Positions 2,721 to 63,898 of a stretch of DNA of 64,000 bases are shown one piece after another. Below the pieces are notes generated by a model. That model was not told the DNA's origin. It was given only the letters and a program-made list of their open reading frames with translations, and made no database searches. Within the stretch, counting starts at the first letter, position 1; every line of letters starts with the position of its first letter. The position numbers and the translations under genes were made by a program. Origin of the DNA: Pisaster brevispinus (taxonomy: Eukaryota > Echinodermata > Asteroidea > Forcipulatida > Asteriidae); the NCBI GenBank assembly GCA_023634235.1, contig JAMKCF010000013.1, positions 124,001 through 188,000 on the forward strand, given 5' to 3'.

Positions 2721-2792
2721 CTACACTACTGCATACACGACGTCAACGTCCAAATACATATGTAAGGCTTCGTAGATCAACTTGTACTGCTC
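2721..2792 (-). CDS. RPTP exon 32: C-terminus
   Basis: [20 protein letters not shown], then AVV and TAG (2721-2723). EQY.. is the standard last helix of a PTP domain, so the protein ends just after D2. Acceptor tgttcag. Confidence 0.93.
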   Translation of the reverse strand, partial: EQYKLIYEALHMYLDVDVVYAVV

Positions 2793-5700: not shown

Positions 5701-8700
5701 GATTGGTACTAGTATGAACTTTAGAATCAGTGAGCTTTCAGATGGAAATATTTCTCAAGGGGATTGGTACTGGTATGAACTTTAGAATCAGTGAGCTTTC
5801 AGAGGGAAATATTTCTCTTGAGGATTGGTACTGGTATGAACTTTAGAATCAGTGAGAGTTCACATGGAAATATTTCTCCAGATGGTTGGTTGTAAATAAG
5901 GACTACTCAAAGAAGTCACCCAAGTATTCTGACTTACATTGAGGAAGCAGGCATTGATGTAGTTGTTGAATCTGTCTTTTCCCGATGACATCAAGTGAGG
6001 TCGGAACAGATCAACTTGAAAAATAAAAAGTTAATCGGTGACATTAATTTTACTGTTTAGTGCTTTATCAGATCCTACAAGGAAAGCTTACACAGAGAAT
6101 GCCTAGAGCTGGTTCAACCAAGCTTTAAATCAGTAACAGTGCGGTTCCAGGGTAACTTCCGATAAAAGTCAATTCAAGGAAACACATACAACTACAGTGT
6201 AGGACAAGTCTCTATGCATCTAACCAAAACACTATACATGTGGAAATAGTAATAAAAGTTTATACTTTTTGGGCTAAAAAAAACACACCATTTTGCAGGG
6301 AAAAAAATTGGCTGAAGTACAATACACTAAACTTTTTTCCTGCGAGGTCACTTATAAAATTAACTAAAAAGCCTCACCTGGTAGTTTGTCTTGAAATCTG
6401 TTTTTCTTAACATTTCCTGGTTGCTGACCCCCTTTAAACTTGTCAGGTTTCGGAATATTGGTCACCAAATTCAGATTCTGTATTTGAAGACAATCAAAAC
6501 AAAGTACGATTGAGGGTATGTTAAATGCTTATTTCAGTTGCCATATGACAACATTACAGAAACTGACATCTGCATCTCGCAATCAGGGAGATTTAGTACA
6601 ACAATCCTTATGCCTTGTGCTACAAAAGGAAAAGAACAAATCGGCTTTACATTCGTGCATATTCGTTATAGTTTATGGTTAAACTTCTTTGCCAGATTCA
6701 TTTTTTTTTCATTTGGATTGTATGTCCCTGTAAAGTGTTTGACACATAACGGTGTAACTAGGGTAAAAACAAATAAATAACTTTGTTTTGTCTGATGCAA
6801 TTATGACCTCAATGAAACACTTATCATGAAAAGTTCGTGTACAGTCACCTTAATTTATACTGAAATACAAAACTAATTAACAATAGAAAAATCTTTAAAT
6901 GAGACCGTCACCTCAAACTCTAGCTGCAGTCCTGTCTTCCCACTGGCCTTTTTGACCTTCTTCAAGGCAGTCAGCTTGGAGAGAAGCTTTCCTGGCTTAA
7001 TGCAGGTGTCACCACATAGAAAGAAGTCAATCAAGACATCAAAGATGAACTCATACTGGGCCTGTTTGGATTGAGAAAGAACTTAAGTAGTAGGCCTGGT
7101 ATTTCATATTTGAGAGGGCAAAGCCGTTTTTCATTTTGCAAAGGGCTTTTCCATCGAACATTTTTAAAGCCTTCAGGAAAAAGCACCATGGCAAAGACCA
7201 GGCCATGACCACTGTGTAACTCCAGGCATGTAGTATAGTTGGCAGTCTAGATGCCCATTGTGATGAGGTGCGTTCTGCGTTATTATGCAAAGGGTCAGTA
7301 GGAAAATTGAATTTTTTCTGAAAATTAAGTAACAAGTTTTTAACGTCTTGGTTTTTGGACATTGTGCTACGAAACTTTTAAAACTTCACAGTGAAATCAA
7401 ACACTAAGAGATTAATACCATACTGATGTTTGTTAAATAAAGCTTATGTTTAATTCATTTGCTTTTTATCATTGTCCACCAAATTGTTGTTTTATTTTTT
7501 GTGAACTTTCTCTGATGCAACTGTTTTATTTCTGGTTTTAGGTACTATTCAATAACACTAGACAGAACTTGTACAAATGACTGGAAATAACTTGATGTTT
7601 ATAATTTACCGATGTTTGAATCATCTTCATCCGTTTGTCTCTCATGCCACAAGCAAAGTTCCAGATATCAACTTGACCTTCTGCCTTGGCTTGGTCCAAC
7701 ATGGCGTCCAAAATCAAAAACACCCCGGTGCGGCTGATTCCTGAACTACAAAGTAACATGAACAATTATGGCATGATACCATCATGGAGATTTAAATTTC
7801 TGATGCACCATTTTCAGTCTCTGTCTGATTTGCACCCAGACATAATATTTTTTTATTATTCTTGTATTAATAAGGAAAAAAGAAGAACTATAAAACCAAA
7901 ACAGAACAAAAAAGCAAGAAATATAGGTCTAGCCCTAGAGACATTCAGAATAGCAAAGTGTAAAAAGGATGGTGACAGGAGGGCAACTGATCGGGCATGG
8001 AGAAAAGCAGAATTAGTGACACATGAGAAAATGATAAATGAGTGTATGAAGGGAGCATGCAAGTATGCGATGTCAGTCTGGGGACGGACCAAACAAAACG
8101 ATGCAGGTTAGGGACAACAAAAGTAAACTTAATCACTCTTGCTTGGAAGCATGTTATCCAATACATATAGTCAGACAGGAACTGGCAATAGAAAGACATG
8201 AAAACATGAGGTGGAGGAAGACGAATCACGTTCGTCAATCTGGAAGGATTCAATAAAACCAATATCAGACAGGATTTAAACAGATGGCGTTAAGTTGACT
8301 TATAAATATCGGCAGGGAACAAATTACAGCAGATGTGATGTGGAATGGTGTCTCTGAAGACGAGGGGGCGGCGAGTGAAGTAAAAAGTCTGTGAGAGCAG
8401 AAAGATGGCAGAATGTGAGCGTGTAAAGATGGAGAGGGTAGCGAAGAAACAGAAAACATCTTCGACTCTCCACGCACTAAGCCAAAAAGAATTAGCGTGT
8501 CAAGATTAAGAGGCTACCAATGGCGTACAAAGTGCAGTCACAAAAATACCAACCTGCAATGAATGACCATCGGACCAGCATTCTTGGGGTTGTACTCCTT
8601 TACTGTTTTGACAAAATTCACCACTTTGACGGGATCTTGGGGCAAGCCCATATGAGGCCATGTTATGAAATGATACTGCCGAACCTGTCTAGTCCAATCA

Positions 8701-11700
8701 TCCTAGGGTGTAATGAAAAAAATAAACAGGATTCGAGAATTACTAAACGGGCCTCATCCACAAAATATAGACATTGCAGGTGAGGATAAAAACGTTGTTG
8801 CTTGTGTCTTTACTTACAATTCCATATTTTGAGCATCAGGCTTAGTACAATAGCAGGGCTCGAATTTTACAGTTAACTACAAGCGTGAGAATCAGTTGGA
8901 CCAGTAAACGTGAGGCCATTAGTTTAAGTGTTGGACCAGTAAACTTATGCCCGGACAATAACCATACATGAACTTCACTGTGTTATATCTTGAACAGAAA
9001 CAAATTTGTTCAATGTTGACTTTGAGTTCGATAAATACTTCTCAATTCTAATGAAGTATTCTTAAAACGCAAAAACACAGTCAAGGGCATTTTTACAAGG
9101 ACCTAGAAAGTTGTTCACTCATACATATTCTGGTCTTGTACAAAACTGTCTGGTCAAGTACACGTTTTGAGCTACAAGCCATGCGGTCATGTGGATTCTT
9201 CTCCTAGATTGACCCGATTCAACTGACCTCATCATCGCAATAATCTTGGTTGTACTATTTTGGGAGTCAGTGCCCGCTGGTGTTTCAAAATGTAGTGAGC
9301 ATTTCATGGCCAGGGTTTATATACACATTTACCACAAATTGTACGTGCAATTTGACTCCAAAAATTTCGAGTGTGGCTGACAGTAGCCGTGTGATGTTGC
9401 TGCGAAGAGTCAGGTGCAATAGGTTTAGTGTATACGCATCCAGAATAACTCAGTCGTGTGTGTAGCTTTAAGGCTATATTAAAACAAAAACAAGATAATG
9501 TCTACTTAGCAAAGTTTGTTTGGGTTGGCTTCAACGTAAATAAGCAATTTACTTCATTACCTGCAATTTCAGATTTATCGTAAAATCTCGGACGACGTAA
9601 TCTTCATGTGTTTCCTCCGTTTTCAAAGTGACAACATAATCACCATAGCGTGCTGTTTTGTCTGGCCAATACTTCTCACATTTTTCCTGAAAGTTTAAAA
9701 TGGAATAGAGCAAACAGCAATAACAAAAAATGTTTTAAGTTAAGTGTGTACCTCAAGTTGGTTACAAATTGAGCAATGCAGCTTGAATTACCTTGACTCC
9801 TTCTTGTAGGTTGGTGAGCATGACAATCTTAGCGGTATTCTCCTGCCATACCATCCTCCACATGTCACAAACGGAAGCCTTGTTTGGACCTAAAATTGTG
9901 ATATACATTATTAAAATGATATGGGATGTACAGACAGTGAAGGGCTGGCTGGTTTTAAACCATTGAAAAATCCAGTTATGATCAATAATTATTGTACATT
10001 TCTGGTAATGAAACCAAGGATGCCTCATAAGTGAATAGTAGCTCGCTAGCCTGAGGAAACCTGTAAACGAGGGTGCTCGCAATGTGAACCAGAAACACCT
10101 CGGGGGTTTACCCCCCTACTCTTCAGATATAAGTGTTCTGGGTTCATTTTATGCACACCAATCCCAGTTCATGAACAAAATAATTATGGTAAAGAATCTT
10201 GCTAATGACACAAGTGCCACGACCAGGATTTGAACCAACACTAGAGCTTGAGTCCGATGCTCTTAACCACTCGGCCACGACACGCCACAAAATAATCATG
10301 GAAACATTAGTAGCCAAAGATTTGAGTTCTATTACCTTTTTGTAGTTTAAAGCTCCAAGAAAAGTTGCATAAGTTTGTTTATAATTTGACTCACCTTGGC
10401 TGGCTATGTATTGGTTCGGCTCCTTGAAACCCTGTTTTAGTGAGTAGAAAAGCAAAAACACAGAATACTTTATGTCTGCATTTCTACAGATATCAAAAAC
10501 AGATTTAAAAAACTGTTTTATTTTGTTTTTTTCTCGGGGGGATTAGTTATTGGACTGAAAACAAAGCGGCTTTTTAAAATTCGTTAGTTGAACTCTTTTA
10601 GGAAAACTTTGTTTTCATTTTATAAGCAAACTGTATCTGTGTTAAACTTAATCAACCGTACTTGGTTTAAGTTCACTACTGTTCAGGGGAGTTTCCCGCC
10701 TTTTCCAGTTCTTTCTCAAACTCAAAGTGGTCCATCATGGATTCTTTACAGGCAATTACAGGGACCAGTCAGAACAGAAACAGATCATGATGATTAACTT
10801 ACATCCATGTAACTTGCGTTTACATAATCCGAGTCTGGTTGATCTGGTAGTTTCTCAAGCACAACGCGAGAAAAATCATCTGTGGTAGATTAAAGGTAGA
10901 TTCAAATCACTGCAAGACCATGACATTTAAACATTTCCTAGTTATATGATCATTTCCCAAGGCAACGTGAGAGGAAAATGAAAAAGGGGTAGACAGAGGA
11001 AGAGATGAGAAGAAAACATGTAAGAGTGAACGAACTAGAGTTTGCCAACTCACACAGGGCAGTGGAGAACAGAGAAACATTGAACAAGATTGTTACAAAA
11101 AGAGGGCAGTGGAGGACAGAGAGGCATGGAGAAAGATTGCTACAAACAGAGGGCAGTGGAGGACAGAGAGGCATGGAGAAAGATTGTTACAAACAGAGGG
11201 CAGTGGAGGACAGAGAGGCATGGAGAAAGATTGTTACAAACAGAGGGCAGTGGAGGACAGAGAGGGTTGAGGAAGATTGCTTAAAGTAAAACAGAGGGCA
11301 GTGGAAGACAGAGAGGCATGGAGAAAGATTGTTACAAAAGAGGCATGGAGAAATATTGTTAAAACAGAGGGCAGTAGAGGACTAGAGGCATGGAGAAAGA
11401 TTTATATGAAGTCATCAGTGGCGCCCAATGTTATTTAGCGTGTTAACACCTCATCTGGCATGAGTTGTTAACGGAAAGAGCAATTTCTGATTATTTCGTT
11501 AAGACAAAATGTTGCAATACAAACAAAAATCGTTTTTAACTCACAAGGAATGATGTTAGCATAGCGATTCTTGTCATTGTTTTTGTCATCTTTTCCTCTT
11601 TCACATGAATGATGGTCGGCATCGGGCAAACGCTCAAAGTTGAAAATAAATAAAATGAAACAGATTGTTAATCTTAATAAAAGGGAGGCAATAGACCTTC

Positions 11701-14700
11701 GTAGGGCCTACTAATGACATCACCACTTTGCAGAAGAATGGGAAACCATTCTGTCTCTGTCGGAAATGCAGTACCCAGCTTACAGCATTTCAGCAATGCA
11801 CTAAACCTTGACACCATCAGTACAGGGGTCTTTTAGAGCCACATAGACCCACTGAAGAGCCACTTACATATGGCAGTAAACACATAAATTAGCTTATCAC
11901 ATAAACATCTAGCTCAGCATAATCGTTAGCGTGTGCCCAGGCAGTCAAGTGCACCGTACTCAATATGTAATGTTATTTGGGTAATAATAAAAGGTGCTTT
12001 GAGGCGCCTATTTGGTGTAGAAAGCGCACAATAAATTCACATATTGTTATTATTACAGAACCATCATTATCATGACTCACCTCATAGTCAAACAGAAACC
12101 CATTGCCCTCTTTGTACGTTTCCTCCTTCTTCTTGCTGACATAATCTTTGAGCTCTGACAAAGGAATCGGAAAAGGAGCCGTAAACTGCTTCTTCTTGTT
12201 AACCTGCTTTGGTCTGGCTGGTGCAGCGGCTGGTGCAGTGGCTGGTGCCGTGGCTGGTACAGTGGCTGGTACAGTGGCTGGTGCAGTGGCTGGTGCTGTA
12301 ACCAGTGCATAGTCTTGTATGGTTACATCCATGATTTCATAGGTATCAATGTATGGATTTTCAAGTCCTGCAGAAAGTTTGTTATTGCTTGCTCGAACTT
12401 CTGCTAAAACAAATAAAACGTTCAAGAAATGTTTGGCTGTGATGTTGTCAACAAAAATTACGTGCATAACTTGTTTTTAATGTATGTAATAATTTTGATA
12501 AATCTGTTGTAGTTAAGATGCTCTAACACATCTCAATTTTTTGAAAAGTGCGGTCCAAACTTGACCGTTTTGTTATTACACTCGTTGCATTTCTGGCGTT
12601 GATGGCGTGTTTAATGACACTTTTGCCGTTGATGGCGTGTCAAAATTACAAACTATGACGTCGTCGTGAAGTGTTGCTTTGTATTGCAACAAAGTAGCTT
12701 TACCCAAAAAAAACAGGTTTCTCATGAATGAAATTTACCGAGGAATAAAGTGAGAGAGCTTTTCCTGAATCTTGCTCAAAAGCAGCAGAGAGAAAGGTGT
12801 TCGAAATTGTAACTTTTTACAATATAAAAACTGTTTAAATAATATCATAGTATGATCTAAAACTTGTTTATTAAATGATTTTCGGCAAAGATTGCTTATT
12901 GTTGTAAATATTTGAAACTAACAGCTATATTTTTCGTCAGGCATAACAAAGGGCTGATGAATTCAGCATAAAGTGTGAAACTGAACTTATTCTTTTAGTA
13001 AAACCTACAATTTTTTTTTTTTTTACAAGACAGGTCTCCTAAAGCTTTCGAGCTCATCGATTAAGTTCACTTGTGAGGCATCCTTGGTTTCATAACCATA
13101 AATATAGAATAATAATAACAGGGTGATAAGTTTGACTTACCATTTGAAGCGTTGAAATGTCTTCGGTCCCCTGAGCTTTGGTTAAGCCTTTTGTTTCTCC
13201 TGTCAAAGGTACAGTTACCAGACATAATAAATACAAACTACCCCCATTCAACGAAGATTAATTGCAGTTATTGGTTCATTCGTTAATTTCATTCATAATG
13301 GTTTATCACTACCATGTGTGTCGAAAACACAAGCTTAATTGCACATGAGTTAAAGACAAAACAGTATCCTGCTTAGCTTTGCTAAGCATAATTTTTTGCA
13401 AGCAGCTCTATGATATAGGGCCCCAATTTCATGGAGCTTCTTGAGCACAAGTGTTTGCTAAGCACCACAAAATTATGCTTAGCAAACTAAGGTCACTAGT
13501 CAAAATGGCATTTTACATGTACACTCTGTAACTGACTGTCTGACATCCTGCTTATTTCTGCTTAGTAGAAAATTGATTAGCAACACTTTGAGCCCATTTT
13601 CCCTGTCAATGAGAGTATATCACATGTCACTAATTATGACTGTAATAATTACCTTATTTTGAAGATCAAAGCAGCTATAATACAAATCAAGACAAGCAGC
13701 ATCAATGGAACCACAATCGCAGCCACCTGTGGGCTTGCAATTTGTGGCACTGCAAAACAAAGATTATATTGTTTAAGTTTTTGAACAAAGCGAACTTTTT
13801 TTTTAAATTATCTTTTGATGGTAAAGCTTACATCATTTGTACTGTAAAATTTATGACACTGAAAAAAATTAGTTCAGTATTACAAGTTCAGTTTTAGTCA
13901 AAAATTGGCTGGTCAGTTCATTGTGATTTTTTCCAATCCTTACCAAAAATGTTGTGATAATTGTTTCTGAAACTTTGACAATAATGTGGCTCATAATTTG
14001 ACCTCATTACTACATGATATTTACTGATATGGCGAATGTTAGTGAATGGAAACGGCCAGATTTCACTGAGGGATAATACTCTGTGACAATTTGCACCAAC
14101 AAAAAGCATTCAATAATAACTCACCCGTGAACCCTAATCATTTGAAGAAAAAAAACCACTGTCAATAAATACAAAGCAGACATGGAAACTCGTCTACCCC
14201 ACACACTGAAAATTCTAAAAACACCTAGTAAACAACGTTGACGACTCCATGTAGACAAGCACCGCCCTTGTCAGCTGTGACACATCTACCTTTGACCTTG
14301 CCTCGTTTGGACAAACAAGTGGAAAATGATTGCGTTTTTGGAAATGACGCTATACGAAGCGTCCAAAGTGTCCGATAATTCAATGTAGGGCTCCTATAAT
14401 AGGTTTTGTAGCGTCGCAGCAGTATTCATGAAAAAATAAAGGATGTCACGTGACGCGTGTTCCACCAATCAAATGACACGGATCTGTGAGTCCTATAATG
14501 CACATAATATAGTGCACATTTTTGTCAGGTACCCTAGGAATGATAGTTTTTGTTCTCATTTCACATAAAGGAACCGATTTTGTTTTTGCTTTCTGCCTCA
14601 GTTTGAATAGCCTGGGTTGAATTAAAGTAAAGTTGTCACAATCTGATCAAGGTAAGTTATTGACCGATAAATTACCTTCTACTCTGAGCGGTTCACTCCA

Positions 14701-17700
14701 CTTAATAGCATAAATCTAAGAAAAATGAAGAGAGATGTACAAGACATTTGTTTAGCTTGTATCAATCTGATTTTTATATTCATCCATGTTTTAAATCTTC
14801 ATAATATCTCAAGTACTTCTTTTTTAATAAGAACAATAGCAGCAATAAGCCTCTTGATCGAATTCACCAGACGTCATCATCACAATATTATTGGTAGCTC
14901 TGCTTTATAGTCAATGTACGTGTGCAAAGTGTAGTGTAAACAAGCTAACCATAATTTCCACAAGCATTTTTGACTCCTAAAACAAGCCATTTGCAAGTTA
15001 GATTTGAATGTTGTCTGGTACAATGACTTGCTTTGTCACAAGTTACCACTTAAATTTGAATTCCTCAGACTGCGGAGACGTAAGCAACTATCTCGATAGT
15101 TTGAGTAATTTAAATGTGACCAAGCAAGTCATTGTACCAGACATAATTCAATTCTAACTCGCAAATGGCTTATTGGCAAGCATAGCAGAGAGTATACAGC
15201 CGCACGTTGCGTTAGTTCAAGGGGTTGTTCGTAAAAATATTTATATATTTTAAAAACACACAAGAGATAAAAGACTCACCGATTGAGAAGTCCTACTGAC
15301 TGATCCAAGGTAGATGTCATACTGAGTGTTGCTTTCCAGGGGTTTGTTGTCAAAACTTCCCTGTGTTTCTCCGTCACCCACAGTGAATGTTGCAGGGAGA
15401 TCCTTCTTAGGTAATTCTGCTGCTACATAATCAAGAGTTGGTGCAGTGGATCGTTGGTACCTTGATCCCCTGGTTTCCCTTCTAGTAGTGACTGTCTTAA
15501 CCCGCCGTACACCAACTTGCATCCCTCTAAAATAGTCATTGATGAAGTAGTTAAATTTCTGATTTCATTGGTTCAGTAATAATGTTGCTATTTTCTTGAG
15601 CAAGTTAATTTCTTTCAATACCACACAGAGGCAAATTTTAAAACTAAAAAATTAGGCTTCACTCAACAGCACAAGTTGAACAAGGCAAAGGTGAATGTTG
15701 GTGCAGGATGTTCTGTCGATTGACTTTAAGAATTTAAATTTGAAATGTTTGTCAATCTAAGTAACACAAAATAATTTTGCTGAAAAGGGCTAACCAAGAG
15801 CTAATTTCTTAACTCTTAATCCAGGCCTTGAATGTTACAGGGTAAACATCATTTGCATCCTTTAAACTTACGTCATGTACTTTGACGAGGACGGAAGATT
15901 CAAAGCTATAGTGACTGTGGAAGAAGTCAAATCTGAGATATCTTTTTGGGATAGCATGGTCGGAGCAGAAAGATCTGTAAGGTCAAAGAAAAAAGTACCT
16001 TGGGAACATTCTCTTTCCGAAGAATCATAAGGGAGCATCTTAAAAGTCAGAATGGTTGAAAAGTTGTAATTGGATCGGTTAAGTATTCCAGCAGGCGTAC
16101 ATTGACCAGTCAGTTTGACTGCCAGAATGATCCGTTGGAAAGTTCTAATTGGATCGGTTAAGTATTCCGGCAGGTGTACATTGACTTGTCCGTTTGACTG
16201 CTGAAATTATCTGTTGGAAAGTTTTGATTGGATCGGTTTAGTCATCCAGCAAGCGTAGGACTCCATAAATTCATTTCAACTAAATTATGACAATTGAAAG
16301 CTTTGTCACACAATACCTGTCTCAACTGCAGTAAATGCCTCTAATATTGCTGTCTCTCCAACACCAACACTGTTGAAACCTTTCAGTCGGAAATCATATT
16401 TTGTGGATGGTTCTAAACCGCTAATGTTATTATGCATATCTGATGGTTCTATATCGACCGCTTCGAATGAGTTGATTGGACTAAAGCTGGTATCATAAGG
16501 TTTCTCCAGCACCCTGTATAAAAGCTGTACATTGTTTTTAAAATAGGAAATAAAAAGCCACTGATAATTACTACAAACATTAACACCTGACATCGCTACA
16601 AGTAAATTTAATTGAGGTTACAAATACTGAAATCTTGAATAATTGGACTGGCATAAATATTTGTTTTGATCTAAACAATCTGTTATAAAAACTCACTGTA
16701 TATTTAGTTATAACACCATTTCTTTGACCACAGGGTATTTCACTCCAGCTAACTGTAACACTATGCTTCGTTGATGAAGTACTCTTGAAATCTGTTGGAG
16801 ATCCTGTTGGCTCTAAAATTGTAATTTAAACACAAAACATCCTTATGCTCAAAATTCAATATTTGGGATTAGTCACGATAATGACTAGAAAGTATTAGAA
16901 TCACACTCTGTGCTGAGTTAATAAAACGGTTTGTCTACCTAGTATCTAAACCTGAACATTTCTTCAACATCTTCTCTCTACATAGATAACTTCAGGCCTA
17001 TGTGGCACAGCAGCAGTCACTTTGTAGGGTGCCTTGGTTTCATTACCAGAAAGATTACGAATAACATGAAGATAGAATAAATGAAAAGCACGTTATACTT
17101 TCTCCTGTTAATGGAGAGAGGTTAATGTTTCTAGGTTAATGTTTCTAGAGGTAATTTACATGCAACCAACCAATGTTTCATTTTTCTTGGAAATGTTACC
17201 ATCTTTTAGAAAATGTTTCTATGCTTCCGACGTGTTCCTTTTGCATGCAGTGTAATTGCTTACTTCTAAATTGTCTGCGAAAGTTACCTAGTGTGACACG
17301 GGCCTTAATTACATCACACACGTGCACAAGTTTTTGCTTCTCCCGACTACAAAGCTGGCACCTTTTGCCTGCAATTTTACCTTAAATCACTCATAATAAA
17401 AATGAATTTCTTATGGCAGAAAACTATAAGTCCAAGAGTCATTACAAAACACATGTTAAAGCCAAGTCAAAAGTATTTATAATGGTATCTCCACCTTTTG
17501 GTAACCCCTGGAGTTTTAGATTTCATTGAGCTTTCTGAGAATGGTATCCTCAGAGAACAGTATATTGCCAGAGAAGTCAATCAGAAGACCAAATCGGTAG
17601 AAAATAATGAGTTTTATCACCAGGCAGACATAAAGAAGTCTGAATTCAGACAACAGTCTGGAAGTTCTCATCCCTATAGATACTCCCCTACCAGAAACTT

Positions 17701-19177
17701 ACCATTTTCAGGTGTTGTGTGTGCGATATAAATGTTCTCCTGAGATTCACCAAGCCCTGCCTCATTCCTGGCAAGTACACGAACCTTGTAGATTGAATTG
17801 GGTAATAAACCAGGATGTGATAGACTGGACTGTCTCGCTGTTATGTTGTGAAAAGTTTCAAATTCACCACCCACCTCTTGGCAAAGATCTCTCTTAACCA
17901 GTTGATACTGTACCGCATAATCAATAACAGGACACTTGTTCTGAGGAGCTTTCCATGTAATGGTTCTGCTGGGATCTTGCACAGAGCTGACTTGATAGTC
18001 TACTGATACAGGAACTGAAAAAACAAAAGTAAAATACAAATGATTTGTCCTTAACGAAACTATGAAAATAATACTTTCATAATTGTTTCAATGTCGTAAC
18101 AACCTTGGCAAGTCTTGTGTCCTGGCCAAACGGTCAAGCTCACTGGACTCAAGCTCTGGTATTTCTGACCAGTAGAGTGTGGGTTCGAGTCCCGGTCTTG
18201 ACAGGTGTGTCCGTAACGAAGACACTTAGCCGTTATTGCTTTGTCCTTTGGATGGGACGTAAAGCTAGAGATCTGGGTGGGGTAATGCACGTAAAAGAAC
18301 CCAATTACACTAGCGTTAAGAGAAGGGGGTTCGCCCAAGTCTTTTCTGGTATGGTTGGCTGCAGATTGCACCATAGCATCTTGTAAACCCTAACATGGTG
18401 CTATGTAAATAAATGGGTCTTATAATTCAAGCATATAGCTTCGCATACCTTGAAGAAAAACATACGGAGTGCTTTGAGATGCCCTCGATTGTGATAAAGC
18501 AGTAACTAATTATTGTTGTTACCATTAAGAGTAATTATTGCAGTCAGTGGCGTATAACCAGACATTTTCATTTGGGGGCTAATCTTTTAATCGATCCTTT
18601 TATCTGTGATTATTGTTTATATCTCACTTGGGTGGAGCAAGGTTTTGAGCCCCGCCCCTTCCCCCACCCTTCTGGTTACGCCACCGTAACGTTTACTTCG
18701 GATTGTTAAAATGTTCGTGTATTCTCAAAAAACATGAAATGTCAAATTCATCTTACTCATGCAATTTGTTTGGCGCTTCCTATTATTAAAGAGCTATTTT
18801 CATTGTTGAACTTAATTGTTTTCTTTTGTAAGGGTCTTGCGATAGCAATTGGTATCGTGAACTTCTTGTCACCGAAATAATTAGTTTTATGTAAATAACT
18901 GATATAATTTGGAAAACGTTTTCAAAATAAAAAAGCGTCTAGACTCAATGTTGTTTGCTAATCTTACCGTAACACATTCTGCAGTTTGGATTAAAGCCAA
19001 TCTGACCATACGGACAAGAGTCTGCAAAAAACAGGATGTTTAAAAATACAACAATTAATAAATGAAAACTAATAAGAAAAATCAGCTGCAACAATAGCAA
19101 AATTTCTTCCGTTCTTTTATTCAGTTAATTTAAATTTAAGTAGCTAACAGCTTCTATATGCAGGAGCTATAACCACA

Positions 19178-57400: not shown

Positions 57401-60400
57401 TTATTGCAGAGCCGTGCAAATCTGGTTTTGTCTCAAGGAGTGGTCTGGTGCCCTGCCTCCCATGCCCTGATGGCTATTACCAACCAGGGATTAGTAAGAC
57501 TTCCTGCTATAAGTGCCTTGGTATGATGGCTAACAGCGCTGTCACCACATGGGAGAGCTGTATCGGTGAGTTTGCCCATATGTGACCTGCTTGCCCAATT
57601 AAAGTTTTCGCTTTGCTTTGAACGATTTCGTACTTTTTTTTTTAGCAGAAAGGAGCTTTCCAACAATAACCGTGGCTTTTAAATGTATACATACCGTTGA
57701 CGCTGTATAAAAGCTCATTTGTGAAATTTGTTGGCATAAGCCAAGAGTTATGTTCATATTCAAGAGTTGTTCCATATAAAAAGTTGTCATACAAACAGTA
57801 TATTTACCCCCCCCCCTCAATCTCCATCATTTCACCTATCTTCCTCTATCTCTTCACTTTCTTTTTCAGGAACGGATCTGGATGGTTTCAACATCAGTTC
57901 TTTGGAAGTCGTTCCATTCAACGACTGTTTCTCCGTTCCTTGTTCAAACGGCGCAACATGCCAGGCTGTGTCAGCTGGCTATGTCTGCATATGTGCCCCA
58001 GGATACACAGGTAGGTGTCTAGGAATATCATCAAAATAACTGCCATTAATTAGGCACTTTTAACCCTTAAGAGACCCTAGCGACAGCAAGCGTCTTGTAC
58101 CGAAGTGCCCATAGCGGCTGCAAATGGCTACAGGATTTGATTTACTTCAGCTCAAATAAGAAGGTTAAAGTGGGCGAGTTTGTTGCCTTAATGCATTAAA
58201 GAAATGTACCTGGGCCCGTGGGGAAAAAAGTTTGAATATGCGCAAGACTTGCATGGTCTTCACTGTCTCTTTTTCATCTATAAAGTTGCATGTCTGTTTA
58301 ACATGTGAGGGAAACAAATTTTTGCATTCCAACGAGGCCCAATGTTCAAATACGCTCAAGATTTGATTAGTCTGTTGCTTTGGGTACCCTTTGTTTTTGC
58401 CATTGGTTCATTTGTAAAACTTTGATACATATTTGCAACTGGAAGTCCCATGCCCCTTCAGTGAAAAAGTATGAAGCCTCGGTATTAAATATTTTGCAAT
58501 AATTTGAGTCTCAACCTTTCGAACACCTCCCTCTGGAGTGAAAAAATAAGGGTCAGCATACTAGGTTTGAAAATGTGAAATGTTCGTTTGGTTGCTTTTT
58601 GTTTCCAGGAATAAGGTGTGACATTGAGATCAACGAATGTGAAAACGCACCATGTGAGAATGACGGCAATTGTGTGGATCGCCTGAATGGCTTTACCTGC
58701 ATCTGCAAACCAGGCTTTGCAGGTAAATTCTCTCAAAGTATAGATTTTATAATGTATGGTAAATGTTTGTCCTTATTCTACCTTGCATCGATAGATGGAT
58801 TGGAGCTGGTCTCATCTGTAGGCCAGCCCATTGGTCTAATAGTTTAATTATCTGCTGTAGCATGCAGAAGTTGTTGCGTTTGAATCTCAATTGAATCAAG
58901 ATGCCTCTCGGTACCCGGGAACTCTGAAAAGACAGGCCTGGATTTTATGGTCTCTGTTGCTCCTGGCCTTGGTCTTGGTGTCCCTTCAAAAGTTTCCAAT
59001 AGACTTTTTTTCAATGGATGTGCCCTTTGCAAAATGAAAATGGCCTTGTCCTTTCAAAGATGAAATTCCAGGCCTGACAGAGCTAGTTGGTTTATTCTCA
59101 ACATTTCAACAAGTGCCATAGCTGTAGCAAGGTGCCTTATTATAAACCCTCCTACTGTTGGTAACATTGTCCAGCCCAACCCTGTACTATATAGATGCAT
59201 TCACAGCATGGCATCATATTGCTGGCTGGCATATTTGATCTATAATTCAAAACCTCTGTGGATAATATTGAATGGTCAGACAGTAGGAGGGTTCACCGTG
59301 TACTATACCTATTCACCACATGATACCATATGGCAGGCTGGCATAGTTTATCATTCCTAATCACAGTGGATGATAATGAATGATCAGACAGTAGGAGGGT
59401 TGACTATGCACTTTATAATACTTTTATGTCAACTTATTGCCTTTTTTTTGCTCAGGGGAAACTTGTTCAGTTGATATTGATGAATGTAGACCCTACTCAT
59501 GTGAGAATGAAGGTAGATGTATTGACGGCATAGCCAGCTATCAGTGTGACTGCACCCAGGGTTATTCCGGTAAGAAACCAATCTTCAGGAATCATATCAA
59601 TTGGCCATGTGACCTGTGGCATCACATGTTTACAAAAGAGCCACAGGGCCTGGACTTCCTGCCGGCCAAATCTGTCCAAAGCTCAATGGAGGAAAACATC
59701 AAATCTTTCATTTTATGGAGACTGCAACTTACAACTTTTATCAACTTTATGAAGAATGGGGGCACATCTCAAAACTGGTCCAGGGGTTGATTTCACAAAG
59801 ATAGTCCTAACTATTAAGGACTAGTCCTAGGAGTTAATAAAAACTTAAGGCTTGTCCTAAGTTAGGACGAGTAACTCGTCCTAACTCGAGATAAGACTAG
59901 TCTTAACTCTTTGTGAAATCCACCCCAGCTCTTCTTGTGTTTTTTTTTTAAATTCTTGATTTTATGTGGTAATTATGATATGTGACCCGCTCTGCAAAAA
60001 AGGCCCGTAAGTCGCGCTATGCCTTTTCACGTAATGGGCTCGTCAATGTTGAAAGGGTGATAAATTTTTCGTTGGTGTGATTTTTTTATTATCCCTTTTT
60101 TGACATCGATGATATCCACACTTTCATAATTTGTAAGATTGAATGTTTATTTTGACCAATAAAGATGAAAAAAAAACGTGTTTTGTTGGTGGTTTGCGCG
60201 ATCGGTGTCCGCGGTTTTGGTGGAAAGTTGCGTCATTTTACACATCTGGCAGCACATTATTTGGAACCCCCCTATTATAATTTTGGTATCATCTGAAAGC
60301 TGAGGACGTTGCCTTTCTGTATGTGGACATAGAAAAGGTTAAAGGTCAAATGCAAAACCAAGGCAGGTTAATTTCTGACACGTATACAAAGGGCGCTTGT

Positions 60401-63400
60401 TACTAGGAGCGTGGATTTTTTCGGTCACGTGTATACAGTGTAGTGTAACGATTGGACAATGGGCGCACGGTCGAGCGCGCGCATGCGCCGTGAATGGGAT
60501 TGGTTGTTTATTCATTGTCAGGTGACTGCCATGTGACTGTTTATAGAGTGCGTGCCACGCGAAAACACAGCGCAATACCTGTCAATTCTGTCCAACTCAA
60601 CTACCTTCTCTTGCTCCGAGCGTAAATATTTTCATAATTATTTACTATTTTAGCCAACATATCTTGTTTTAAGCAACAGGTTTTCTATACTGTTTCGTTA
60701 ATTATTTGCTTAAGTATGGGTTTGAAGAATCAGTGTCTGGCTGAAGCTTTGAATGATCTCCGTGAGGAGAAAGACACGATTGGTTTCGTGGAACGGAAGA
60801 TTACTTTGTTAACTGTCGATGTGAAAATGACGGTGTTGAATCAGAAACCGATTTGGAATCTGATTCCACATCGCCATCTTCAGCAGGAGATAACGAAAAG
60901 ATCGACCCTGACAGCAAAATGTTAACCCAAAGATTATTTCAAAATTGATTAATTAACTTTAGTTCGATCTTAGAAGGCAAACCATGTTGACTAGTGCTAG
61001 ATTTAAATTAATAGAAGGAAATATTAAATTTGTAAACTTTTTTTTTTTTACAAAAACTTTAAATTTTTAGCCCAAAAATAGTTTAATCCTGAAAAGTGAG
61101 CTTATTTAAGAGTTTTATTAAACAACTCAAGCTGATAGTTTAAAATTACAAAAAAAATGTGAAATAATTTTTTTTTCCCAAAAAGCTCTTTTCACACAAA
61201 AAATACATAATTTTAATTCATAGGGTTTATACAGCCAGTGTTCATTTGTTTAACTTTAAGAAAAAGCTACTCAATTCACCAAAAAAGGTCTTAACTCTTC
61301 AAAATAATTCTCAAGTGTGTGTTTGCTATTTAAAAATTTGCAAAAAAATAAGAAATAGCACAGTATGCAAATTAATTTTTAAAAATAGCGATATAGTGCA
61401 TTAAATGAAATGCAAAATATGTTGTACTTTAAAAGACATAACAAACACTTGGTGAAAATTTCAGACGAATAGTCAAACGGGAACGTACTCGTTGCTAGGG
61501 ACTTTCACAAGAACTTGGTATTGAAATACTTTAAAATACATCGTAAAGTTTAAAAGGCTGTTTCTCCATAACCTATTTTGACAAAAATGGCAAGTATTTG
61601 TATGCAAATTAGAGTATAACTCTGGATTGCAAAATGCTACAGACTTCTTAAATACACCAAATTAAAGCTGAGAGAAAGACCTTTCCATCCATGTATCTAA
61701 CTCCAAAATTATTTTTTGCGACATAAGGGCCATTTTTGCAGAGCCGGTCACATATGAAGTATGACATTTCTCATGTGACTAGTGTACTATTTGCCTGCCG
61801 AGAAATGACCTGGAATGCACAGGGTCACTTTTTTTGTGAACAAGATGAAATAGTCTGTGAGTTCAATGAGATTGTTGTTATGCAGTAGAGTTGGTGGCCT
61901 CCAAGATTCCTGTAAAAGATGTCAGGACCCAATTTCATAGAGCTGCTTAAACACAAATAGCAGCTATAAAGCACAACAAAATTAAGCTTACCAAAAAAAG
62001 GTTATCAGCCAAAATTTCATGTAGCATGTACCATCTGTGACTGGTATCCTGTTCATTTTTGCTTAGCAGAAAGTTGTTAAGCATCATTTTCAGCTTTATG
62101 AAAGTGGGTCCTGGTGTGACTTGGCCTCACTGTTCGTTTCTTATTGCTGTGTTACTACAGGTGAGTATTGTGAAGAGGAAGTAAATGAATGCCTTTCAAG
62201 CCCTTGCTACAACGAAGCATACTGCGTGGACGGCCTGGCGAGTTTCAGCTGCGACTGTCTGGAAGGGTTCGACGGCTCATTCTGTGAGATGGAAATAAAC
62301 GAGTGTATGAGTGAGCCATGTCTGAACGGAGCCGAGTGTCACGACCTCATCGCTGAGTACAGGTGAGTTGGATTTGACCCCCCAAAACTCATTAGTTGGT
62401 AAGCACTCGTATTAGGCGGGATTCAAACAGGAGTCCACAGGAGCAGTAGATACCGCCAACCTGTGGGATTGTTGTGACCAACTTGTTGTAATTTCCATTC
62501 TGATTGACAAGATATGGAGGTGTGGACTTCAATTGGGTCCCAGTTGGTCCCATAAGATTTTAAGGTAGGGTCATAGATTGGTAAATACTCCAAAATTTGA
62601 TGACCATAAAAACTTAGTTGGTGAGAAGCACTGCAGCTGTTGATAGTTTAAACTACTTTCAGTCAGGATTCCCTTTGAAGTAATATGGTTTGGATAATTG
62701 TTCACCCCCAAACATTTGAATCTGAGGAATGACTCATGCATGAATAGCTTTTTCTCAGATTTTTGAGGGTTGGTGTCCGTTTGCGAATGCTGCAGCCAGA
62801 GATTCGGTTGGTACCCACTGTCACCTCGCTAAGCTTGGATGATTCTATGTTCTTGTGAAGATGTTGTGAAATTTTTTTTTCAGCAAGTAGACACCATTTT
62901 CAACTGAACCTTTCACATGTGACTGCAATTGTATCTTTCTTTATACTTTTGCCTTTAAATAATCATTGCGATGACAAAAACCAATCGATGACCCTACCTC
63001 TTATGTGGCATATCGTCTAAAAACTTCTTTCATTTTTTTCTTCCAGGTGTGACTGTAAGCCTGGCTTCATTGGCACTCACTGTCAGACAGATGTGGATGA
63101 ATGTTTATCCTCACCATGCCACCATGGAGGCTCGTGTCTGGATGCTATCAGTGGCTACCGGTGTGTCTGCCCCCACGGGTACACTGGACCTCTCTGTGAA
63201 GTGGGTGAGTATACAAGAAATGCTGCAAATAAACAACTAGGTGCATTGGTAACAAATTAAGTGTTTAGACACTTTACTGTGAGACCTTGGGACCAGTTTC
63301 TTTGAACATTTCCTTGGTGAACTTGTTTTGCAAGCAAAAATAAGCAGGGGACCAGACTCTAACAACTTATTTCCCATGATGTTTCGATTGGTAAGTTACC

Positions 63401-63898
63401 TAAACATGCTTTACAGCAAAGTTGGTGGCCTTTATATTTAATATGGCACTATTGCTTAACCATGGCTGGTAACTCATTTCTGTTTACCAAGATTTTTATT
63501 TGATTAGCAACTTTTATGAACCTTGGCTCAGGTAAAGAACTTGGGCCAAATTTCATGGTGGTAGCTGACCACAATTTTGCACTAACTGCCTGCAAAAACT
63601 ACTCGCTTTACAGGCTGCAGAATTCTGTGGTCATTAGTGTCATGAAAACAGAACAAATACCTGATGTTGTTTTTCCTTTCTTAGAACTTCCTTGGGATTT
63701 CAGTCTCCTGTTTGATCACTTCAGCACGACGGACTACATCTTGATGAAGGATTTACTACCTGAGATGAGGGAGGTGACCGCCTCCTTTTGGATGCGCACC
63801 ACCGACTCCTTCAACTATGGCTCTCCGTTCTCCTACGGAGCGATGGACAGTCACGGCACTGCCCTGAGCAACGCTTTTACATTCATGGACTATAGCGG
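32777..63898 (+). CDS. SVEP1: SVEP1 orthologue, 5' 23 exons (continues past the window)
   Basis: Exons join in phase to 4565 nt (1521 codons plus 2 nt). Domains in order: signal peptide (about 25-43), VWA (143-325), EGF-like (about 338-385), GCC2-type (386-440), sushi x3 (441-628), HYR x2 (629-791), sushi (792-855), a diverged linker (856-1036), GCC2-type x3 (1037-1207), EGF x6 (about 1215-1450) and the start of the pentraxin/laminin-G-like domain (1451 on). This order and count is that of vertebrate SVEP1, a large secreted matrix protein involved in cell adhesion and lymphatic and vascular development; the missing part should hold the rest of the pentraxin domain and the long sushi array. 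The first Met at 32777 is chosen; an inner Met at 32852 directly precedes the hydrophobic core and is an alternative. Expected to be secreted. Identity rests on domain order and motif matches recalled from the family. Confidence 0.95.
33491..35990. other. SVEP1: SVEP1 intron 1
   Basis: 2.5 kb; the only notable content is the 19-bp palindromic array at 35205-35596. Confidence 0.75.
35205..35596. repeat. SVEP1: Palindromic tandem array, 19-bp unit, about 20 copies
   Basis: Unit ACGGTTCTTCTCAGAACCA. Each unit can form GGTTCT-TCTC-AGAACC, and adjacent units form AGAACC-AAC-GGTTCT, inverted hexamers with a 3-bp gap. Variants (CATGACC, CGAAACC) occur. Confidence 0.95.
35991..36255 (+). CDS. SVEP1: SVEP1 exon 2: VWA end
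   Basis: [20 protein letters not shown] gives the third MIDAS Asp (259). [15 protein letters not shown] matches vertebrate SVEP1 closely. Acceptor cccacag, donor GAGG|GTAAGA. Confidence 0.95.
36398..36712. mobile_element. MITE with TTAAAGGGACA ends
   Basis: TTTAAAGGGACATGTTGCCT at the left is inverted at the right (GCAACGTGTCCCTTTAA). The centre is a palindrome of AACACGGTCCGCCATTTT and its complement. Confidence 0.88.
37727..37844. mobile_element. Short MITE copy, TCTGTCCCCC ends
   Basis: Second copy of the element at 1-89, with a longer run of G before its right end. Confidence 0.6.
40471..40647 (+). CDS. SVEP1: SVEP1 exon 3: EGF-like
   Basis: [19 protein letters not shown], then [20 protein letters not shown]: the Cys-rich module that follows the VWA domain in SVEP1. 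Acceptor cattag, donor CACC|GTAAGT. Confidence 0.92.
40735..40935 (-). mobile_element. tRNA-derived SINE (family A), degenerate
   Basis: 'ggctttacgtcccatctgaa' and 'ggacaaagcaa' are the inverse of the body at 18240; a degenerate tRNA head follows at 40855-40930. Confidence 0.6.
41083..41135 (-). ncRNA. Hammerhead-ribozyme-like core, minus strand
   Basis: Opposite arm: GCAT-CTGATGA-A-GTAG...CTAC-GAAA-GCTC-ATGC, with an intact GTAG/CTAC stem II around a duplicated loop. Matches minimal Penelope-type hammerheads as I recall them. Confidence 0.5.
41138..41175 (+). ncRNA. Hammerhead-ribozyme-like core, plus strand
   Basis: GCAT-CTGATGA...CTA-CGAAA-GCTC-ATGC: stem I GCAU/AUGC, CUGAUGA and GAAA in hammerhead order, with AGCU in place of a long stem III. 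Stem II is poor on this strand. Confidence 0.45.
41540..41640 (+). mobile_element. tRNA-like SINE head
   Basis: 'gtggccgagatgtcctaggg' then 'gtgggttcgagtc' (B box). Confidence 0.55.
41952..42116 (+). CDS. SVEP1: SVEP1 exon 4: GCC2-type (ephrin-receptor-like) repeat
   Basis: [20 protein letters not shown] and [18 protein letters not shown] match CPxGTYKP...GGISSC...CPDENHTSPPGS of vertebrates. Confidence 0.94.
42460..42735. repeat. SVEP1: Tandem repeat, 50-bp unit, 5-6 copies
   Basis: CTCAATCCTCCAAAATCAAC recurs at 42491, 42541, 42591, 42640 and 42690 in SVEP1 intron 4. Confidence 0.93.
44499..44683. mobile_element. MITE, best copy of the CATAGAGCTGCTTAAGCA family
   Basis: GGGACCAGTTTCATAGAGCT at the left, inverted AGCTCTATGAAATTTGGCCC at the right. 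Relatives at 1480, 13417, 40965 and 61924. Confidence 0.85.
45314..45493 (+). CDS. SVEP1: SVEP1 exon 5: sushi 1
   Basis: [13 protein letters not shown] to [10 protein letters not shown]: one complement control (sushi) module per phase-1 exon. Donor AAAG|GTGATT is weaker than its neighbours. Confidence 0.93.
45758..45937 (+). CDS. SVEP1: SVEP1 exon 6: sushi 2
   Basis: [40 protein letters not shown]. Acceptor tttgcag. Confidence 0.94.
46195..46310 (-). mobile_element. tRNA-like SINE fragment
   Basis: B box on the minus strand (GGTTCGAATCCC) in 'atgggattcgaaccccttc'. In SVEP1 intron 6. Confidence 0.5.
46495..46650 (+). mobile_element. tRNA-derived SINE (family B)
   Basis: 'gcttctgactggcacccctg', 'ccaacatagggctagag', then 'ccagaagtcacaggttcaag' (B box). 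Confidence 0.65.
46716..46919 (+). CDS. SVEP1: SVEP1 exon 7: sushi 3
   Basis: [18 protein letters not shown] to [13 protein letters not shown]; longer loops, as in the third SVEP1 sushi. Donor TTGG|GTAAAT. Confidence 0.92.
47030..47278 (+). CDS. SVEP1: SVEP1 exon 8: HYR domain 1
   Basis: [29 protein letters not shown] and [18 protein letters not shown] are hyalin-repeat hallmarks. Confidence 0.94.
48140..48379 (+). CDS. SVEP1: SVEP1 exon 9: HYR domain 2
   Basis: [28 protein letters not shown] and [26 protein letters not shown] is identical to the vertebrate protein as I recall it. Confidence 0.95.
48437..48740. mobile_element. Possible MITE, CAGGGATGT ends
   Basis: 'cagggatgtaatttatcc' near the left and 'cctatcacatccctgat' at the right are an imperfect inverted pair around low-complexity sequence. 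Confidence 0.4.
48899..49090 (+). CDS. SVEP1: SVEP1 exon 10: sushi 4
   Basis: [15 protein letters not shown] to HGMPWEDCA. In vertebrate SVEP1 the same module ends ..TEWPDCA and runs into a KK-rich linker, as the next exon does here. Confidence 0.92.
49137..49529. mobile_element. MITE with AAGGTATAC ends
   Basis: 'ttaatgggaaggtatacgtt' and 'aaaggtatactttgccttta' form inverted ends around about 390 bp in SVEP1 intron 10. Confidence 0.7.
49637..49795. repeat. Local direct duplication
   Basis: 'accatttcatgttctgatga' to 'gatctctccgattat' occurs twice, about 90 bp apart. Confidence 0.9.
50214..50332 (+). CDS. SVEP1: SVEP1 exon 11: linker
   Basis: [20 protein letters not shown], then [16 protein letters not shown]. 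Weakly conserved, but its KK start after DCA and the Cys position fit the vertebrate linker. Acceptor tttgtag, donor AAAAGG|GTACGT. Confidence 0.78.
51427..51496 (+). CDS. SVEP1: SVEP1 exon 12: linker, 70-nt exon
   Basis: [20 protein letters not shown]; the C....VDCR pattern recalls the vertebrate ..DIDCRLEE.. segment. Phase 0 to 1. Confidence 0.78.
51995..52150 (+). CDS. SVEP1: SVEP1 exon 13: linker
   Basis: Ser/Asn-rich start, then [16 protein letters not shown] and [12 protein letters not shown] includes an RGD tripeptide, a possible integrin site (inference only). Acceptor ctgcaag, donor ACAG|GTCAGT. Confidence 0.78.
52732..52962 (+). CDS. SVEP1: SVEP1 exon 14: linker end, GCC2-type start
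   Basis: [20 protein letters not shown] to [14 protein letters not shown]. In vertebrates the linker ends ..FCRPGSVLRGRMC, which fits well. Confidence 0.85.
53314..53475 (+). CDS. SVEP1: SVEP1 exon 15: GCC2-type repeat
   Basis: [20 protein letters not shown] and [18 protein letters not shown]. Confidence 0.94.
53619..55748. mobile_element. Composite repeat block with GGTGTTCGTG inverted ends
   Basis: Opens with a hairpin (TAGGTGTTCGTGCA and its complement, 53619-53651) and closes with CACGAACACC (55739-55748). Inside: two to three units of about 310-350 bp (from 53755, 54065, 54413) with TGACGTCA, then five units of about 150 bp with ACTTCCGGTTC...CCGGAAGT. No ORF of note. Confidence 0.8.
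56017..56170. mobile_element. MITE with CTTTGTGAAATC-type ends
   Basis: 'ggggccaatttcgcaaag' and 'ctttgtgaaatccagccct' are inverted ends; related to 59782-59926. Confidence 0.7.
56420..56491 (-). mobile_element. tRNA-like SINE remnant
   Basis: Minus strand: GGTGGTCTAGTGGTTAAGAC (A box) and GTGGGTTCGAATCCCAC (T arm with a perfect 5-bp stem). The acceptor ends do not pair, so not an intact tRNA. Confidence 0.7.
56511..56672 (+). CDS. SVEP1: SVEP1 exon 16: GCC2-type repeat
   Basis: [20 protein letters not shown] and [20 protein letters not shown]. The acceptor follows a tRNA-like SINE remnant by about 20 nt. Confidence 0.94.
56973..57131. repeat. SVEP1: Tandem repeat, 28-bp unit, 5 copies
   Basis: TGGCTGCAGCGGCTATGTCT recurs at 57001, 57029, 57057, 57085 and 57113. 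Confidence 0.95.
57410..57565 (+). CDS. SVEP1: SVEP1 exon 17: GCC2-type repeat
   Basis: [20 protein letters not shown], then [15 protein letters not shown]; vertebrate SVEP1 has ..FSRSGLMPCHPCP.DYYQPN.. Confidence 0.94.
57870..58010 (+). CDS. SVEP1: SVEP1 exon 18: EGF 1
   Basis: [20 protein letters not shown], then CICAPGYT. The last Cys of each EGF lies in the following exon. Confidence 0.93.
58609..58722 (+). CDS. SVEP1: SVEP1 exon 19: EGF 2 (calcium-binding)
   Basis: [20 protein letters not shown] with the DIxINEC calcium motif, then [11 protein letters not shown]. Confidence 0.94.
58930..59085 (-). repeat. Interspersed repeat, copy 3 (inverted)
   Basis: Inverted copy of the family at 4430-4575, in SVEP1 intron 19. 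Confidence 0.55.
59153..59405. repeat. SVEP1: Two related copies of a 'cagacagtaggagggtt' repeat
   Basis: 'gaatggtcagacagtaggag' and 'gaatgatcagacagtaggag' end two similar blocks of about 115-120 bp; a third relative, inverted, starts with an opposite 'ccctcctactgttgg' at 59153 and another lies near 40140. Confidence 0.7.
59456..59569 (+). CDS. SVEP1: SVEP1 exon 20: EGF 3 (calcium-binding)
   Basis: [18 protein letters not shown] and [10 protein letters not shown]. Confidence 0.94.
59782..59926. mobile_element. MITE with GGGGTTGATTTCACAAAG ends
   Basis: Right end is the inverse (CTTTGTGAAATCCACCCC); the interior is rich in GTCCTAA/TTAGGAC palindromes. Confidence 0.88.
59978..61755. mobile_element. 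Non-autonomous TIR element, 1.78 kb
   Basis: ATATGTGACCCGCTCTGCAA...GGCCCGTAAGTCGC at the left is inverted at the right (GCGACATAAGGGCC...TTGCAGAGCCGGTCACATAT), arms of about 40 bp. A 69-codon ORF at 60716-60925 shows no recognisable domain. Confidence 0.85.
61924..62112. mobile_element. MITE, CATAGAGCTGCTTAAGCA family
   Basis: AGGACCCAATTTCATAGAGC and inverted 'ctttatgaaagtgggtcct'. Ends 48 nt before SVEP1 exon 21. Confidence 0.85.
62161..62362 (+). CDS. SVEP1: SVEP1 exon 21: EGF 4 and start of EGF 5
   Basis: [16 protein letters not shown] and [16 protein letters not shown]: one and a half calcium-binding EGFs; ends in phase 2 (TACAG|GTGAGT). The acceptor lies 48 nt after a MITE. Confidence 0.94.
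62563..62999. mobile_element. MITE with AGGTAGGGTCAT ends
   Basis: AGGTAGGGTCATAGATTGGT and inverted ACCAATCGATGACCCTACCT flank about 400 bp in SVEP1 intron 21. Confidence 0.88.
63047..63204 (+). CDS. SVEP1: SVEP1 exon 22: end of EGF 5 and EGF 6
   Basis: [13 protein letters not shown], then [16 protein letters not shown] and [15 protein letters not shown]. Confidence 0.94.
63685..63898 (+). CDS. SVEP1: SVEP1 exon 23: pentraxin domain start
   Basis: [20 protein letters not shown] and AFTFMDYSG match the vertebrate ..[20 protein letters not shown].. segment. Donor GCGG|GTGAGT, phase 2; the rest is outside the window. Confidence 0.94.

Follow-up and report, generated by a model that had tools for sequence, protein, structure and literature searches.

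What does it mean that, in the sea star Pisaster brevispinus, the gene for SVEP1 lies head to head with a gene for a receptor phosphatase (RPTP) with a TIE-like ectodomain? A preliminary description had pointed to binding of Svep1 to Tie1, which is indeed published (PMC10129328; PMC10281526), and had proposed that the two genes, divergent and about 6.7 kb apart, may form a linked ligand–receptor pair that predates the vertebrate partnership of TIE and SVEP1. We analyzed bases 124001–188000 of contig C13 (18.6 Mb; genome 550 Mb in 512 contigs), a stretch of 64,000 nucleotides referred to here as the window, and a splice-site script was used to reconstruct the exons of both genes. The geometry was borne out by splice modelling, with SVEP1 on the plus strand (ATG at 32777) and the TIE-type RPTP on the minus strand (ATG at 26080) separated by 6697 bp from ATG to ATG; the limits originally given, 2721 and 63898, are the RPTP stop codon and the end of modelled SVEP1 exon 20, and the gene identities held as well (Pfam; TIE2 match, E = 1.7e-35). 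What had been missed is that the receptor gene belongs to a tandem array, of which it is the terminal copy. In our judgement, the chances are even that an array of tandem TIE-type RPTP genes comes to its end in the window against SVEP1, with the receptor role and position proposed below. The features of the window are as follows:

2721–26080, minus strand: TIE-type RPTP gene, 30 exons encoding about 1430–1461 aa, the final array copy (splice modelling, Pfam, relatives P0121–P0126)
2721–6477, minus strand: PTP domain D2 and C-terminus (Pfam, E = 1.5e-64)
6957–11632, minus strand: PTP domain D1 (Pfam, E = 1.1e-78; motif comparison)
13653–13726, minus strand: transmembrane exon (hydrophobic stretch judged by eye)
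15280–18014, minus strand: FN3 domains, taken as three (Pfam fn3, Fn3_PTPRU)
18968–21298, minus strand: EGF exons 1–4 and a partial fifth (alignment to the TIE2 EGF repeats within the match of E = 1.7e-35; Pfam EGF below curated cut-offs)
21830–22801, minus strand: two Ig-type exons, 22801–22481 and 22081–21830 (Pfam Ig_3 for the second; the TIE2 alignment begins in the first)
25945–26080, minus strand: coding exon 1, which includes the signal peptide and the ATG at 26080 (copies at C13 2.4, 53.3, 90.1 and 121.3 kb)
26081–32776, no strand: intergenic region, 6.7 kb (segments of it, as far as about 27.2 kb, are repeated upstream of other copies in the array)
32777–63898, plus strand: SVEP1, exons 1–20 of the 28 modelled (splice model; Pfam; relative P0012 84% identical)
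32777–36255, plus strand: SVEP1 signal peptide and VWA domain, exons 1–2 (Pfam VWA, E = 3.9e-30)
41952–49090, plus strand: SVEP1 exons for ephrin-receptor-like, three CCP, two HYR and CCP modules (splice model, Pfam)
57870–63898, plus strand: SVEP1 EGF repeats and first pentraxin exon (Pfam EGF, E = 1.3e-44, and Pentaxin, E = 4.3e-23, over the spliced model)

The SVEP1 model comprises 28 exons and 3265 aa, continues past the window and ends at C13:198312. It misses short exons near 50.2–52.1 kb and the true C-terminus, which lies at about C13:199.1 kb; both are revealed by P0012, the closest SVEP1 relative among the best 120 of 884 proteins (84% identical over the CCP region searched). Pfam recognized VWA, Ephrin_rec_like, Sushi, HYR, EGF and Pentaxin domains, and VWA, ephrin-receptor-like, CCP, HYR, EGF, pentraxin and CCP-array modules follow one another in the order that characterizes SVEP1/Polydom. 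The vertebrate protein has the same plan of VWA, ephrin-receptor-like, three CCP, two HYR, CCP, EGFs, pentraxin, long CCP array and EGF end, and a macaque sequence is 46% identical to the sea-star protein over 717 N-terminal columns; on the other hand, the vertebrate CCP array has no one-to-one match to the sea-star array, and the Tie1-binding VEGA site is not clearly present in the sea star. To the right of SVEP1, 9.6 kb (C13:207836–217462) consist of short tandem repeats in which two or more frames are open (WAPAAANCN / GPSCCQLQL), and an ORF at C13:244759–244971, perhaps in a gene right of SVEP1, resembles a ZZ zinc finger as in dystrophin and dystrobrevin. Between SVEP1 and the receptor gene, there are 48 stop-to-stop ORFs of at least 50 aa, and the seven of them that were scanned gave no Pfam match. 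Pairs driven by a bidirectional promoter have start sites within about 1 kb of each other; with 6697 bp, measured between start codons and not transcription starts, the two genes do not qualify as such a pair.

The receptor model runs on the minus strand from the ATG at 26080 to the stop codon at 2721–2723, one exon (16803–16587) being too long in the model, and it specifies a signal peptide, an Ig-type exon, an Ig domain, EGFs, FN3 domains, a single transmembrane segment and two PTP domains. Its ectodomain aligns with the solved ectodomain of TIE2 (E = 1.7e-35) over a span that starts at the end of Ig1 and extends through the EGFs, and the next distinct protein follows at 7e-6. Judged by sequence, it is homologous to that of TIE2 and is referred to as TIE-type. 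The Ig–EGF–FN3 order and the TIE-type EGFs are common to TIE1, TIE2 (TEK) and the window RPTP; however, the tyrosine kinase domain of the TIE receptors is absent, and Pfam found two tandem Y_phosphatase domains instead. TIE receptors have a third Ig domain located after the EGFs, whereas none is seen at this place in the window RPTP, the EGFs of which number four plus one partial.

The preliminary description had also drawn an analogy with VE-PTP (PTPRB), and this analogy fails. When a 125-residue D1 query was compared with solved chains, the best matches were the two-domain RPTPs PTPRA, PTPRE, PTPRS and LAR; PTPRA reached 167 bits, with scores of two-domain chains summing both domains, as against 109 for PTPRK and 79 for PTPRB among single-domain chains. 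The part of PMC5336234 available describes VE-PTP as a member of subtype R3 with an FN3-only ectodomain and a single PTP domain. Both VE-PTP and the window protein are receptor phosphatases with FN3 domains, but the latter adds Ig and EGF modules, contains two PTP domains, both of them catalytically doubtful (see below), and lacks R3 architecture. The Ig/EGF modules, the two PTP domains and the PTP scores therefore describe a TIE-type ectodomain on a two-domain RPTP and not VE-PTP, and an R3 identity is ruled out by architecture and scores. With the two-domain RPTPs (PTPRA/PTPRE, the LAR group and PTPRK/M/T), which provide the best sequence matches of its D1, the window protein shares D1 and D2; it differs from them in its TIE-type ectodomain and in the change of WPD to WPH in D1. 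NCBI names its close relatives 'T-like'.

The window RPTP is the last, next to SVEP1, of at least five same-strand copies that reach the contig end. Copies of the first coding exon are located at C13 2.4, 53.3, 90.1, 121.3 and 150.1 kb and copies of the last exon at 9.4, 63.5, 95.7 and 126.7 kb; every one of them is in minus-strand orientation, and the leftmost copy has its first exon alone inside C13. Gaps of 7.0, 10.2, 5.5 and 5.4 kb separate the copies, and the 6.7 kb to SVEP1 are therefore ordinary. Within the 1.1 kb preceding the window-copy ATG, some pieces recur upstream of other copies (72–89%), and parts of this upstream sequence, as judged from such recurrence, are part of the duplicated unit. 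A search of 258 kb retrieved one SVEP1 VWA exon, so SVEP1 was not duplicated there together with the receptors. Exons are mostly 69–98% identical among the copies, with lower values for the juxtamembrane exon; this exon (window 12081–12387) contains a repeat of 12 protein letters, and copy 1 has several stretches related to it (C13:33.4–34.4 kb). Both Ig exons and three EGF exons are missing from copy 2, in which a fourth EGF exon matches weakly. In comparison with the window copy, omega was 0.28–0.37 for D1 and D2 (three comparisons), 0.32–0.35 for the EGFs (copies 1 and 3) and 0.48–0.79 for FN3; for the first Ig exon it was 0.47 with copy 1 and 1.10 with copy 3, the highest value, which derives from a single pair and 97 codons. 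Contig C29 carries, close to its start, RPTPs of the window subfamily (85–97% per exon) in opposite orientation, and from this orientation the array may run on from C13 into C29. By hand grouping, C29 contains 15 PTP loci, at least one of them of the window subfamily and one at 44–61% identity. Positions 30001–40000 of the 40.9-kb contig C235 carry a copy of the window RPTP with 97–99% DNA identity, either a haplotype that escaped purging or a duplicate of very recent origin.

In D1 of the window copy, the WPD loop reads WPH (exon 8702–8554) and the P-loop CX5R is retained, split over exons 8702–8554 and 7745–7610; the D2 P-loop is QCIDGEGASG, with Ala in place of Arg. Loss of the WPD-loop aspartate cripples a PTP or turns it into a substrate trap. 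As the general acid of D1 and the P-loop Arg of D2 are lost, catalysis by the window copy appears doubtful. WPH is also found in copy 3 and the C235 copy, copy 2 has WPR, and WPD is intact in copy 1 and in one C29 copy. The D1 P-loop is present in 46 of 47 relatives, and the loop, found by looking upstream of it, reads WPD in 44 of the 46, WKD in one and WEN in one, i.e., the aspartate is kept in 45. This conservation, together with WPD in some copies, indicates that the loss is peculiar to part of the array, and since WPD-intact copies exist, the RPTP family as a whole is probably active. Natural WPD changes have been reported for PTPRQ and relatives (PMC5336234, available part). The model of another TIE-type RPTP, P0126 from Asterias rubens, has no D1 P-loop and retains only a degenerate D2.

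PTP genes are numerous in this genome, with at least 152 PTP-domain matches (150 of 341 first-look candidates were scored, and other PTP types are included). Among the matches listed, hand grouping gave 21 PTP loci in about 15 clusters on C13 and 15 loci on C29. With about 15 clusters on 18.6 Mb and an assumed density of 34 genes per Mb, adopted from Asterias amurensis (16,531 genes in 491.53 Mb in the accessible part of PMC10625585), we estimate that about 5% of the genes on C13 would have a PTP gene next to them.

For other animals, genes were taken to share a contig when their contigs had identical sizes in bp; the lists comprised the best 120 of 884, all 43 and the best 120 of 1024 proteins, and an ectodomain was counted as TIE-type when its match exceeded 150 bits. 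In A. rubens, the SVEP1 protein P0012 resides on a 17,180,802-bp contig with five of the six listed RPTPs, including three of the four listed with TIE-type ectodomain. The 46,651,055-bp contig of Patiria miniata carries SVEP1 (P0045), 13 of 17 listed RPTPs (10 of 14 listed with TIE-type ectodomain) and one of three TIE-type kinases. In the hemichordates, all listed RPTPs accompany SVEP1: three of three, one with TIE-type ectodomain, on a 45,689,849-bp contig of Ptychodera flava (P0005, its species being inferred), and eight of eight, two with TIE-type ectodomain, on a 28,834,500-bp contig of Glandiceps talaboti (P0016, a partial SVEP1 that begins late in the pentraxin). Thus, among the matches listed, SVEP1 shares a contig with RPTPs in all four ambulacrarians placeable on large contigs, two sea stars and two hemichordates; chromosome-scale linkage is therefore not confined to the source species, and linkage on one chromosome is likely old in Ambulacraria. 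A. amurensis, whose SVEP1 is not separately listed, has 12 of 13 listed RPTPs, close relatives of the window array included, on one 21,203,961-bp contig. Linkage on the chromosome scale is supported (four of four, listed), but tight linkage of a functional pair is not. The neighbour of SVEP1 belongs to a series of at least five tandem genes with ordinary spacing, and some of its upstream sequence lies within the duplicated unit; the listed proteins nearest to the window RPTP in A. rubens (P0126) and to its subfamily in Patiria (P0127) are encoded on contigs of 12,346,083 and 42,407,541 bp, respectively, and not on those of SVEP1; and the 886-kb scaffold of P0052, the probable Acanthaster SVEP1, is without any of the eight RPTPs listed for Acanthaster. 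Close SVEP1–RPTP linkage is established for the source genome alone.

Three Patiria proteins (P0138, P0139 and P0142) combine a TIE-type ectodomain with a kinase motif. These sea-star kinases have ectodomains close to those of RPTPs from the same species, the best pair being the kinase P0138 and the phosphatase P0216 (81% over 896 residues, query 9–904), followed by P0139/P0204 (68%) and P0142/P0202 (66% identity, each over the aligned parts). Unlike the RPTPs, they have a cytoplasmic kinase domain, which in P0139 is TIE2-like (E = 1.2e-83 against TIE2; the only higher match is a 678-residue chain labelled EGFR). That the Patiria kinases are annotation chimeras is less likely: compared in stretches of 60 residues, P0138 and P0130 are mostly 68–97% identical and then remain at 47–65% up to the membrane, without a sharp break. 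In an ectodomain tree of 67 rows, the three kinases nest among Patiria phosphatases; the tree has some long branches, and one brittle-star kinase sits on a long phosphatase branch that was flagged as unsafe by the program. The likeness suggests paired kinase/phosphatase receptors as well as ectodomain exchange or gene conversion between kinase and phosphatase genes. In the available part of a proteomic study on A. rubens coelomocytes, the surface markers include a Tie-2-like kinase and an 'RPTP F-like' protein, and a counterbalance of Tie-2-like kinase and RPTP is remarked upon; the word SVEP1 is absent from that part (PMC13409769). The A. rubens protein P0184, named F-like, has a TIE-type ectodomain and is located on the SVEP1 contig. 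Cited titles and a table row of PMC12113024 place sea-urchin Tie1/2 in coelomocytes and axial organ. Among the matches listed from the open-licence literature, which did not include the 2006 survey of sea-urchin phosphatases, no paper addressed TIE-type receptor phosphatases or SVEP1–RPTP linkage.

According to the accessible parts of the binding studies, SVEP1 of zebrafish and human binds TIE1, and TIE2 co-precipitated with SVEP1 in two of four zebrafish experiments and was associated in human co-precipitation, whereas its pull-down was not significant (PMC10129328). Mouse Polydom bound Tie1 with 43 nM and did not bind Tie2, the Tie1 site being Glu2567 and Gly2568 of CCP20, which are conserved in vertebrates (PMC10281526). 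PEAR1, another EGF-repeat receptor, is also bound by SVEP1 (PMC9932102). A CCP20 orthologue could not be named by module order, since the best matches of the sea-star CCP array to that of macaque are not collinear and allow no module-by-module alignment. The best window match to CCP20 reads LEGS...V; its Glu-Gly occurs in three of four sea stars aligned and is absent in Patiria, and Glu-Gly at this position is also found in a second macaque module and in two to three modules in each of three other sequences. The vertebrate Tie1-binding motif thus appears not clearly conserved in sea-star SVEP1. A stretch reading 'CVEGAVLHGSGTI' in a sea-star CCP, whose V-E-G-A ... I spacing agrees with the residue numbering of PMC10281526, was rejected as the Tie1 site because the vertebrate site reads NGFVEGADY... 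and lies elsewhere in the module. SVEP1 is a possible ligand of the window RPTP.

How, then, did the two genes come to lie side by side? The best explanation is that a local RPTP expansion ended beside SVEP1 on a chromosome where both families have long been present. The head-to-head position at 6.7 kb most likely results from the expansion having stopped there, and as the receptor gene is the outermost member of its array, its closeness to SVEP1 is probably local; the adjacency probably marks the edge of this expansion, and the receptor family, like its presence on one chromosome with SVEP1, appears to be old. The receptor would sense ligand while being catalytically weak or dead, as a decoy, scaffold or substrate trap; it would tune TIE-type kinase signalling on coelomocyte-like cells and would compete with TIE-type kinases for the same ligands, given that some of these kinases in sea stars have closely similar ectodomains. 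Two facts count against this explanation, namely the WPD-intact copies in the family and the contig shared in four of four placeable ambulacrarians (listed), which is more than pure accident suggests. The latter also speaks against coincidence proper, i.e., an immune or self-recognition family of RPTPs that expands in sea stars and is unrelated to SVEP1, as the contig is shared in two phyla. We consider such coincidence possible, although not probable: PTP loci are many (at least 152 matches, 21 loci on C13 and 15 on C29 among those listed and hand-grouped), Ig and EGF exons were lost in copy 2 and D1 in P0126, and omega is highest, at 1.10, for the first Ig exon of copy 3 versus the window copy. 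However, this value near 1 stems from 97 codons of a single pair, and copy 1 gives 0.47.

At the other extreme, SVEP1 and the TIE-type RPTP could be an old ligand–receptor pair under selection for linkage, in which SVEP1, through binding to the RPTP ectodomain, would switch phosphatase signalling and from which vertebrates later moved the partnership to TIE1. We regard this as unlikely, even though the window RPTP ectodomain is TIE-type, Svep1–Tie1 binding is published, the contig is shared in A. rubens, Patiria, Ptychodera and Glandiceps (listed matches) and SVEP1 binds PEAR1 as an EGF-repeat receptor (PMC9932102, available part). The solved ectodomain matched here is that of TIE2, whereas mouse Polydom bound Tie1 and not Tie2 (PMC10281526); the CCP20 Glu-Gly site is without a clear sea-star counterpart, the nearest listed relatives P0126 and P0127 are off the SVEP1 contigs, the array spacing is ordinary, and SVEP1, with one VWA exon in 258 kb, was not duplicated with the receptors. 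It is highly improbable that the array or its SVEP1 junction is a misjoin. C13 starts within the array, RPTPs of its subfamily occur in opposite orientation close to the beginning of C29, and C235 carries a copy at 97–99%, so the array is hard to assemble; yet no N occurs in the 258 kb joined, A. amurensis has 12 of 13 listed RPTPs, close array relatives included, on one contig, and the sister pairs P0168/P0170, P0185/P0184 and P0200/P0198 in the tree tie that contig to the SVEP1 contig of A. rubens.

TIE receptors are regarded as kinases that VE-PTP, a separate phosphatase, controls in trans. Here, in echinoderms and hemichordates, phosphatases themselves bear the TIE ectodomain, with a tandem array in the source genome and kinase twins in Patiria, and this TIE ectodomain on phosphatases together with its kinase twins is a stronger finding than the gene neighbourhood. 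Beyond the edge of a local expansion, we tentatively consider, as rather improbable when all its parts are taken jointly, a two-armed TIE system of Ambulacraria, i.e., echinoderms plus hemichordates, in which one ectodomain, homogenized by exchange, would be used on kinases and on tandem-PTP receptors, some of the latter being pseudophosphatases, and SVEP1 on the same chromosome would be the shared ligand. If this were true, the SVEP1–TIE axis would be older than vertebrates and would have begun as a balance of kinase and phosphatase. The origin of TIE signalling and of the SVEP1–TIE1 partnership becomes testable outside the vertebrates, and the sea-star receptors offer a natural case of opposed catalytic domains on one ligand-binding design.
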